The position numbers and the translations under genes are program-made. This document shows, piece by piece, positions 32,997 through 35,356 of a DNA stretch of 35,356 nt. This DNA is from Terrimicrobiaceae bacterium (GTDB lineage: Bacteria; Verrucomicrobiota; Verrucomicrobiia; Chthoniobacterales; JAATET01), in contig JAQTOP010000031.1 of assembly GCA_028713285.1 (NCBI GenBank), forward strand, positions 1-35,356, in the 5' to 3' direction. Within the stretch, counting starts at the first letter, position 1. Each line of letters opens with the position of its first letter. The notes below the pieces were generated by a model that worked only from the letters and a program-made list of their open reading frames with translations, was not told the origin of the DNA and did no database searches.

Positions 32997-33818
32997 TCAG
33001 CGGTTGCCGGCGGCGAGGCCGCGGCTGGTGAGATAGCGGTAGCTGGCCTCGACGCACTCGAACATGTCGGTGTCGCTGTTGTCCTGCTCCACGACGAGCC
33101 ATTGCGTCACTTCGGGATCCATCGCGGCGACGATGCCTTCGATGTCGTTTTTGCCGCCGCCCACCGGCAGCAACGAGGCGCTCGGGCCCGCGGCCACTTC
33201 CAGCGTGCTGGTGGCTGCGTTGTAGGTGAATTGCGGGCGCACCATGGGGCCGTCCTTGATGTGCAGAAGCGGAGAGCGGCTCGCGAAGCGCCGCACCATC
33301 TCGGGGGCGTCGTTTTCGCCGAAATTCGCCGCCCAGTAGGTGTCGAGCTCGAACATGACCTTCGGGCAGAGCTCGGCAAAGATTTCGTATTTGATGCGTC
33401 CGTCGATTTTCTCGAACTCCCAGGCGTGGTTGTGGATCGTGAGCGTGAGGCCGGCCGCCTTGAGCTTTTCATTCATCGCGTCGGTGATCTCCGCGGTTTT
33501 CTTGATGGCTTCCAGATCCTGAAACTCCGCGGCGCCGTATCCGCCTGCGACCAGGGTCACACCCAGCACGCCGCATACGTCGATCACTTCATCGAGATTG
33601 CCGGGGCGCGCCCACGGGCTGTGGGTGGAGGAAATGACCATGCCGAGATCTTCGACGAACTTTCGGAAATCCCCGGGCGAAAAATCGAAGAAGCCGGCGG
33701 GCTCGACCCCTTTGTAGCCGATGGAGGCGAGACGCCGCAGAACGGCCGGGAAGTTTTTCGCGGCTTCGTCGCGCAGGGTGTAGAGCTGGATGGAGATGGG
33801 CTTGACGGGAGAGGGCAT
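32997..33818 (-). CDS. Sugar phosphate isomerase/epimerase (AP endonuclease 2-like TIM barrel)
   Basis: This 273-residue TIM-barrel protein of the xylose-isomerase-like/IolE family starts PVKPISIQLYTLRDEAAKNF. It carries GYKGVEPAGFFDFSPGDFRK, the metal-ligand segments LTIHNHAWEFEKIDGRIKYE, VMFELDTYWAANFG, and SRSPLLHIKDG. The C-terminal EQDNS segment is typical. These enzymes rearrange keto-sugars or inositol derivatives and are often encoded beside a Gfo/Idh/MocA dehydrogenase, as here. The ATG at 33818 is used because upstream codons lie in an unrelated, repeat-flanked region. Confidence 0.93.
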   Translation of the reverse strand: MPSPVKPISIQLYTLRDEAAKNFPAVLRRLASIGYKGVEPAGFFDFSPGDFRKFVEDLGMVISSTHSPWARPGNLDEVIDVCGVLGVTLVAGGYGAAEFQDLEAIKKTAEITDAMNEKLKAAGLTLTIHNHAWEFEKIDGRIKYEIFAELCPKVMFELDTYWAANFGENDAPEMVRRFASRSPLLHIKDGPMVRPQFTYNAATSTLEVAAGPSASLLPVGGGKNDIEGIVAAMDPEVTQWLVVEQDNSDTDMFECVEASYRYLTSRGLAAGNR

Positions 33819-33922
33819 GGAGTTTGGAAATGTTGCGGCGCCGACGGTAGGTTGGACCGGCGGAGCGCTAGTCTCTGCTCGTAAGCTCGGTTGCACAATT
33901 GACGATTCCGATGATTTTTTTA

Positions 33923-33998
33923 CAGAGCCGATTGATGATTCCCCGCATGGGGTCCTCCTCCGCCTCACGAAGAATGGCCGCATGCCGCAATGACCCGC
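33923..33998 (+). repeat. 76-bp direct repeat, copy 1
   Basis: This stretch recurs at 34378-34453 with one mismatch. Both copies read EPIDDSxHGVLLRLTKNGRM then PQ and a stop on the plus strand, so each may be the remains of a protein tail. It lies in the gene-free region beyond the isomerase. Confidence 0.85.
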
Positions 33999-34012
33999 AG
34001 TCCTTCGAGGTC

Positions 34013-34124
34013 ACGAATAATGGGGTCAACGAATAATGGGGTCAACGAATAATGGGGTCAACGAATAATGGGGTCAACGAATAATGGGGTCAACGAATAA
34101 TGGGGTCAACGAATAATGGGGTCA
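34013..34124 (+). repeat. Seven 16-bp tandem repeats (ACGAATAATGGGGTCA)
   Basis: Seven perfect units of ACGAATAATGGGGTCA lie end to end. The last joins directly to the 102-bp palindromic element, whose left end shares AATGGGGTCA. The array looks like slippage or repeated insertion at the element's end. There are no unique spacers, so it is not a CRISPR array. Confidence 0.97.
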
Positions 34125-34216
34125 GGCGACAAATCTTGACTGACGGATTCGTGTTTTTGCGCTCTCTCTTTACGAATTCGCTCCCCTCCTGTCAAGATTT
34201 GTCGCCTGACCCCATT
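34115..34216. mobile_element. 102-bp MITE/REP-like palindromic element, copy 1
   Basis: The left arm at 34115-34140 (AATGGGGTCAGGCGACAA then ATCTTGAC) and the right arm at 34191-34216 are perfect 26-bp inverted repeats. The centre also partly folds (CGGATTCGT with ACGAATTCG). It has no coding capacity. The ends resemble the 'AATGGGGTCA' arms I associate with IS200-like REP transposases, so it may be a non-autonomous element moved in trans. Confidence 0.85.
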
Positions 34217-34304
34217 GCCTTGCCCTTGACCCCATTGCCCTCCCATTGCCCCTCGCCATCACATGATAAAACGCTCCTGCATACTCAATGCGAATGCTCC
34301 GTGC

Positions 34305-34363
34305 CATGCTCTCTCTTTACGAATTCGCTCTCCCCCTGTCAAGATTTGTCGCCTGACCCCATT
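34305..34363. mobile_element. Partial copy of the palindromic element
   Basis: Only the right half is present, from the CTCTCTCTTTACGAATTCGC centre through the complete right arm GTCAAGATTTGTCGCCTGAC then CCCAT. The left arm is missing, replaced by unrelated sequence. Confidence 0.8.
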
Positions 34364-34377
34364 TCCCATTTCCCGCG

Positions 34378-34453
34378 CAGAGCCGATTGATGATTCCACG
34401 CATGGGGTCCTCCTCCGCCTCACGAAGAATGGCCGCATGCCGCAATGACCCGC
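34378..34453 (+). repeat. 76-bp direct repeat, copy 2
   Basis: Differs from 33923-33998 at one base, changing Pro to Thr in the shared reading frame. Together with copy 1 it brackets the 16-bp array and the first palindromic element. Confidence 0.85.
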
Positions 34454-34518
34454 GACAATAATGTGTCACGCAATAATGGGGTCAGGGGTCAATAATGGAA
34501 TAATGAATAATGGGGTCT

Positions 34519-34924
34519 AATGAATAATGGGGTCAGGCGACAACTCTTGACTGACGGATTCGTGTTTTTGCGCTCTCTCTTTACGAATTCGCTCTCCTCC
34601 TGTCAAGATTTGTCGCCTGACCCCATTGCAAGCATTGTCGCCTGACCCCATTGCAAGCAGGCATGGACTGCCGCGGAACTAAAAATGAAAAGCGCAGCGA
34701 ATGTCTCCCAGCAGCTCCGCCGGATCCGCTGCACAAGGGGGCCGCGACGGAAAAAATACGAGAAGGCGAAAAGAATTCTGTCAGATATCTTTGACTGACC
34801 TCATTCCCCATTCCCGCATTCCGGCGGCCCGTTGAAGATTTGATCGCGCTTAGCACTGGCGCGGCCCATGCCTTTGCATGGGGCGTGACAGTGCGGCCCG
34901 GCGGGGATTGTGCGGCGTGATTGA
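34519..34924 (+). repeat. Large tandem repeat unit, copy A (contains palindromic element 2)
   Basis: This unit of about 404 bp is repeated immediately downstream. It holds a full palindromic element (34526-34627; one left-arm base differs from copy 1), an extra TTGTCGCCTGACCCCATTGC unit, a GC-rich stretch, and a hairpin around GCCCATGCCTTTGCATGGGGC (34864-34884). No gene is evident; the reading frame across it on the minus strand is only the repeat translated twice. Confidence 0.9.
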
Positions 34925-35356
34925 AATGAATAATGGGGTCAGGCGACAACTCTTGACTGACGGATTCGTGTTTTTGCGCTCTCTCTTTACGAATTCGCTC
35001 TCCTCCTGTCAAGATTTGTCGCCTGACCCCATTGCAAGCATTTGTCGCCTGACCCCATTGCAAGCATTGTCGCCTGACCCCATTGCAAGCAGGCATGGAC
35101 TGCCGCGGAACTAAAAATGAAAAGCGCAGCGAATGTCTCCCAGCAGCTCCGCCGGATCCGCTGCACAAGGGGGCCGCGACGGAAAAAATACGAGAAGGCG
35201 AAAAGAATTCTGTCAGATATCTTTGACTGACCTCATTCCCCATTCCCGCATTCCGGCGGCCCGTTGAAGATTTGATCGCGCTTAGCACTGGCGCGGCCCA
35301 TGCCTTTGCATGGGGCGTGACAGTGCGGCCCGGCGGGGATTGTGCGGCGTGATTGA
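34925..35356 (+). repeat. Large tandem repeat unit, copy B, truncated by window end
   Basis: Identical to copy A as far as can be compared, except for one extra 26-bp insertion of the TTGTCGCCTGACCCCATTGC type near 35040. It contains a third full palindromic element (34932-35033). The window stops exactly at the end of this copy (GTGATTGA), so an assembly break inside a longer array is likely. Confidence 0.9.

Follow-up and report, generated by a model that had tools for sequence, protein, structure and literature searches.

Related Y1 transposase elements

The ends of IS200/IS605 elements are subterminal hairpins, not inverted repeats. TIRtrons (TIRYT) were described by Di Nocera et al. in 2013: they consist of a RAYT-like Y1 gene placed between terminal inverted repeats (TIRs) with the consensus GGGGWSAS, some of the TIRs overlap the 3' end of the gene, and TIR dimers and clusters occur in some genomes (PMC3733652). 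Proteins of the TIRtron type were later put by Quentin et al. (2018) in subclass 2.1 of TnpA_REP, which is defined on proteins and comprises Y1 proteins that are long, carry a conserved C-terminal extension and have no flanking REPs; a DnaA-like or HTH C-terminus has been reported for them (PMC6006769). TnpA_REP is known to cut and join single strands close to the ends (PMC8266576). REPINs, reported by Bertels and Rainey in 2011, are inverted end pairs of about 100 bp which form a hairpin, are presumed to be mobilised in trans and build tandem clusters taking in flanking sequence (PMC3116915).

The repeat array discussed here is the last 1.4 kb of a contig (C57) of a Terrimicrobiaceae bacterium, whose genome is available as 3.53 Mb in 157 contigs. 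Its order is probably Chthoniobacterales (Verrucomicrobiota), as genomes of the same order contain loci identical to named records from there. The whole contig of 35,356 nucleotides was analysed and is referred to as the window. The array runs into the contig end and its length, seen only up to that point, is a minimum extent. The sequence AATGGGGTCA with at most one mismatch is found 22 times in the window versus 1.2 matches expected in shuffled sequence. The array is TIRtron debris, ordinary in kind, of which the member is new, and with the exception of a 76-bp one its repeats all trace to Y1 (RAYT-like) transposase elements found in this genome, here called type A and type B. The first-pass annotation had proposed REP-transposase activity plus slippage; it pointed to the right family, as the ends are those of Y1/RAYT-like transposase elements and pieces of such elements lie inside the array. 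It had also known of no description, which holds true only for the tip arrays presented below, since GGGGWSAS elements and their clusters have already been published (PMC3733652 and PMC6006769).

Composition of the array

Three full copies and one half copy of a 102-bp element had been named, and all were found in the array. The full copies lie at 34115..34216 (copy 1), 34526..34627 (copy 2) and 34932..35033 (copy 3), all on the minus strand, which is the transposon orientation. Their 26-bp terminal inverted repeats pair perfectly in copy 1 (26/26) and at 25/26 positions in copies 2 and 3. Outside copy 1 the 16-bp tandem units noted earlier are present as 7.3 copies of ACGAATAATGGGGTCA (34009-34124, plus strand), and on the other side of this copy the tip is iterated at 34207..34246 (minus strand). 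Degenerate tip units (AATAATG / AATAATGGGGTC) are located outside copy 2 at 34475..34535 (plus strand). Beyond the earlier list there are 25-bp tip arrays on the right side of copy 2 (34610-34659, minus strand) and of copy 3 (35010-35091, minus strand, with one unit more than at copy 2), and transposase gene fragments within the array. In both the 16-bp and the 25-bp arrays, each unit joins the element tip to a few nucleotides of the flanking sequence at the site.

A large tandem unit is indeed present, but not with the length of roughly 404 bp given earlier: the first unit has 407 bp (34519..34925, plus strand) and the second, reaching the contig end, 431 bp (34926..35356, plus strand). Each of them contains, in this order, the 102-bp element, a tip array, the last ~49 codons of type B and a 73-bp hairpin-bearing piece. 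The 3' end of the type B gene (about aa 302-350 and the stop codon) is found at 34658..34798, where the tip array of copy 2 precedes it, and again at 35081..35230, both on the plus strand. One extra 26-bp tip unit is the sole difference between the two large units, with zero substitutions in about 405 bp, and this near-identity means that the duplication is either very recent or partly a product of assembly. The 73-bp piece, with the hairpin GCCCATGCCTTTGCATGGGGC, lies at 34823-34895 (plus strand) and 35255-35327 of the window, on C144 (58814-58886), where the intact type B gene is upstream of it, and on C34 (1570-1643); it is possibly a separate small repeat or a terminator carried along.

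The 76-bp direct repeat was confirmed at 33923-33998 and 34378-34453 (plus strand, 75/76 identical), and a search of the genome gave no other copies. The two copies bracket a 379-bp block of element pieces. A single process acting on shared ends had been suggested for all of these repeats, and it does cover the 102-bp element, the half copy and the small arrays; it does not account for the 76-bp repeat, which is without a AATGGGGTCA end, and the large tandem unit additionally holds a piece of a second transposase element.

Other identities considered for the array were discarded: CRISPR because regular spacers are absent, a coding tandem repeat because the fragments contain stops and joins, and a plain IS200 element because neither the ends nor the protein fit. 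A search of Rfam gave no RNA families in the array. The adjoining gene (32997-33818, minus strand) encodes a xylose-isomerase-like TIM barrel protein (PF01261), and as the array is upstream of the start of this gene, it could have an effect on the promoter.

Assignment to the TIRtron family

Y1 transposase genes (PF01797) were found in the genome by profile search, and a Y1 transposase with flanks matching the array, which had been proposed as a check, was met in the form of type A ends and an intact type B. The intact type B gene is located on C144, with the 16-nt sequence GGGGTCAGTCAAAGAT at both ends. Its protein scores 46.9 bits against PF01797 (cut-off 23), the HUH motif H60-Y-H62 is invariant among 12 aligned homologues, and the gene is bounded by inverted repeats, not by REPs. 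Type B scores 23.3 bits with the IS200 model NF033573, below the cut-off of 55, and 62.2 with NF047646 (REP-associated tyrosine transposase; cut-off 80). Homologues are present in 53 of the 97 relatives searched, most relatives having inverted ends of 16-36 nt; the ends share GGGGTCAG in most homologues, and beyond that they differ from element to element. Plasmid records contain distant partial homologues only.

Inverted ends sharing GGGGTCAG around the gene are the TIRtron/TIRYT architecture (PMC3733652). The motif GGGGWSAS is present as GGGGTCAG in both type A and type B, and TIR dimers and clusters occur in this genome in the window array and on C34. The transposase genes thus fit the published TIRYT/TIRtrons and TnpA_REP subclass 2.1, a family already catalogued. 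With subclass 2.1 type B shares a long conserved C-terminal extension, in which the Pfam search gave no HTH or Bac_DnaA_C match. Two things are absent from the available part of the TIRtron paper, namely an origin of TIR dimers by internal deletion and the iteration of tip and local flank at the element boundary (PMC3733652).

Origin of the 102-bp element

The full type A gene is not assembled and only its ends are seen, at two contig ends. C81 ends in the start of the gene (MARSIRIEYAGAFYHVMARGNRRE...), preceded by AACGGGGTCAGGCGACAAATCTTGAC. At the end of C23 are the final 38 codons of a gene of this kind, whose stop codon falls within the same inverted end. Shared ends and the 102-bp element itself indicate that both presumably belong to one type A family. 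The translated 3' end reads ...HLGMKSAANASQQIRRHRLLDKLTVGAKTRIRQSRFVA before the stop codon, which is within the TIR, and resembles the type B C-terminus LKMKSAANVSQQLRRIR.

In transposon orientation, nucleotides 1-56 of the 102-bp element correspond to the type A 5' end as far as the start codon (55/56 bp), and nucleotides 55-102 to the 3' end including the stop codon (47/48 bp); at the join of the deletion the two halves overlap by 2 bp (GC). The two matches and the overlap make the element two type A ends joined by an internal deletion. Judged by its sequence, the 102-bp element is hence a derivative of type A from which everything between the start codon and the vicinity of the stop has been removed. 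The "half copy" of the element (34308-34363) proved to be part of a truncated type A 5' end (34236..34363, minus strand), with the 5' TIR, a start codon at 34307 and 24 codons.

The element is short and non-coding, it possesses TIRs and its origin is an internal deletion, which are the characteristics of a MITE. In single-stranded form it adopts a single long hairpin (-32.4 kcal/mol, z -11, for copy 2). This hairpin with its inverted ends is a likeness to REPINs; the ends are TIRs beginning with GGGG and not classical REPs, the GTAG tag of the REP is absent, the copies are few, and the element has been deleted from the transposase element itself, all of which is unlike REPINs (PMC3116915). The Y1 transposase and the single-strand logic are shared with miniature elements derived from IS200/IS605. 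A search of the genome for the 26-bp arm revealed a fourth full copy on C34, which brings the total for the 3.5 Mb to four, the array accounting for three. An exact 26-mer scan of a collection of genome contigs gave zero matches to the arm, and none to type A, beyond this genome. The element has two other contexts, one on C34 and one where it is nested in type A, as described below. No empty site was found, the array locus being without a match in three congeners.

Among 97 genomes of the order, paired miniature elements (GGGGTCAG N60-90 CTGACCCC) were detected in eight, with up to 13 in one genome, and the reversed control pattern gave zero matches. One pair in genome G049 matches both ends of a full-length element that the same genome contains and, judging from these matches, is a parallel case of the same internal-deletion origin. 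G049 and G068 (loci L193, L194, L198, L199 and L203) are small and from the same order; they contain 13 and 6 paired GGGGTCAG miniature elements, respectively, which span several TIR families, including TTCCGTTATTTCGCTAATTTGGTGCCA. A phylum-wide scan for paired GGGGTCAG (62/288 genomes vs 25 with the reversed control) was set aside because an unrelated heptamer, (GGGGTCA)n, was mixed in. Arrays of this heptamer are present in the phylum genomes G277, G312, G127 and G349, and are apparently unrelated to transposase ends.

Tip arrays at the element boundary

Copy 1 sits inside the truncated type A gene, directly after GGGGCAAT, and the uninterrupted type A sequence on C81 reads GGGGCAATCGG. On the type A side of copy 1 the tip units read GGG-AGGGCAAT-GGGGTCA-AGGGCAAGGCAAT-GGGGTCAGG. 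The GGGCAAT contained in them belongs to the coding sequence of type A, the insertion target, and is present in the uninterrupted gene on C81 as well. The match between the flank of the unit and the insertion site points to a unit built in place there. At other sites the flank next to the type A tip is different: GGAAAC on C81 and AATAAT on C34. From this one clear nested case the flank part would be target-derived.

Tip arrays were then counted in 79 named loci of Verrucomicrobiota with 117 ends, 74 elements having a recognisable tip. Extra cores in the same orientation within 100 bp outside the element were observed at 37 of the 117 ends (57 cores), versus 4 ends (5 cores) for the opposite orientation in the same outer 100 bp, and at distances above 800 bp cores occur at a rate of about 0.02 per 100 bp. 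Tip iteration is displayed by 30/74 elements, and 80/117 ends are without an extra box. Exact tandem repeats, searched for independently of the motif, occur in 30/116 tip windows (26%), in 0/116 inner windows and in 33/2088 distal ones (1.6%); the Fisher p of 2e-23 is a guide only, the loci being partly dependent. The tip part of a unit most often stops exactly after the 8-nt GGGGTCAG box, with a floor of 6-7 nt on its length imposed by the search motif; flank parts of 5-9 nt and periods of 12-26 bp predominate. Most tip arrays are shorter than 100 bp, hence within short-read length. Upstream of a third transposase gene, at the start of contig C148 (L213/L057), a different end, CAGTCGCCAAAGGGGTCG, is iterated three times; it is another tip array, of a third element type in the same genome.

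No description of tip-plus-flank arrays was found in the literature searched. In PubMed Central text, TGACCCC together with IS200 gave zero matches and the leading matches of GGGGTCAG were unrelated. Tip-plus-target arrays are the one feature of which we found no description, and the remainder is of a known kind.

Proposed mechanism

Very probably the array is what two TIRtron-type elements with inverted ends of the GGGGTCAG type have left behind after being inserted and rearranged repeatedly; of this explanation the composition, the deletion join, the nested insertion and the recurrence of tip arrays have been demonstrated. Type A has lost its coding region, the ends joining at the 2-bp GC microhomology to give the 102-bp element. 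The type A transposase may mobilise such miniature elements in trans, with a single-stranded hairpin as the intermediate. Tip units may arise in place at each new site, either because the transposase transfers strands repeatedly or because the polymerase slips at the junction of target and tip. The 407/431-bp unit would then have been duplicated, most likely by unequal exchange between near-identical repeats. It is from the work on TnpA_REP (PMC8266576) that we infer both the mobilisation in trans and the transfer of strands at the tip.

The main rival explanation of the tip arrays is replication slippage or template switching alone at hairpin-forming ends, with the transposase idle after insertion, and to this we would give slightly less than an even chance. 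The ends do fold into a strong hairpin, short microhomologies are present (GGTCA before the first 16-bp unit) and the unit length varies, but iteration is seen on the outer side alone, and the points at which units break accumulate where the GGGGTCAG box ends, a position for which plain slippage offers no obvious reason. Restriction to the outer side and breakage at a conserved box favour some involvement of an enzyme. It is proposed, tentatively and as a rather doubtful possibility, that TIRYT transposases iterate their own tip, repeatedly cutting and rejoining at the target-tip junction after insertion and thereby writing units of flank and GGGGTCAG. If so, a single-strand transposase activity would build short tandem arrays de novo at the element boundary, and the new units would possibly serve as new binding or cutting sites. 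That the boxes are functional iterons, kept for binding by the C-terminal domain of the transposase or for gene regulation, is very improbable: the 8-nt box is indeed the repeated core, periods of 14-16 bp are preferred and the C-termini reported for subclass 2.1 (PMC6006769) would suit such a role, yet the extra box is missing from most ends, the flanks differ per site and type B is without an HTH by Pfam.

An assembly artefact at the contig end, whether it produced the whole array or just the large tandem unit, is considered unlikely. It would agree with the window ending within the array and with two units that differ by a single 26-bp unit alone, but the same pieces lie on four other contigs in other contexts, the number of tip units differs between the two large units, and similar arrays below 100 bp recur in many independent assemblies. 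Assembly could account for part of the second large unit.

Significance

Tip arrays of this sort terminate contigs in short-read assemblies, which calls for caution. For the miniature REPIN-like element the locus provides a direct sequence origin, in which the 5' and 3' ends of a TIRYT are joined at a 2-bp microhomology; such an origin has been proposed in the REPIN literature but can rarely be followed at the level of the single join. The recurrent tip arrays are a readable footprint of the action of uncharacterised transposases at their ends, and they open the way to a simple assay of whether the enzyme or replication is the maker of the repeats.
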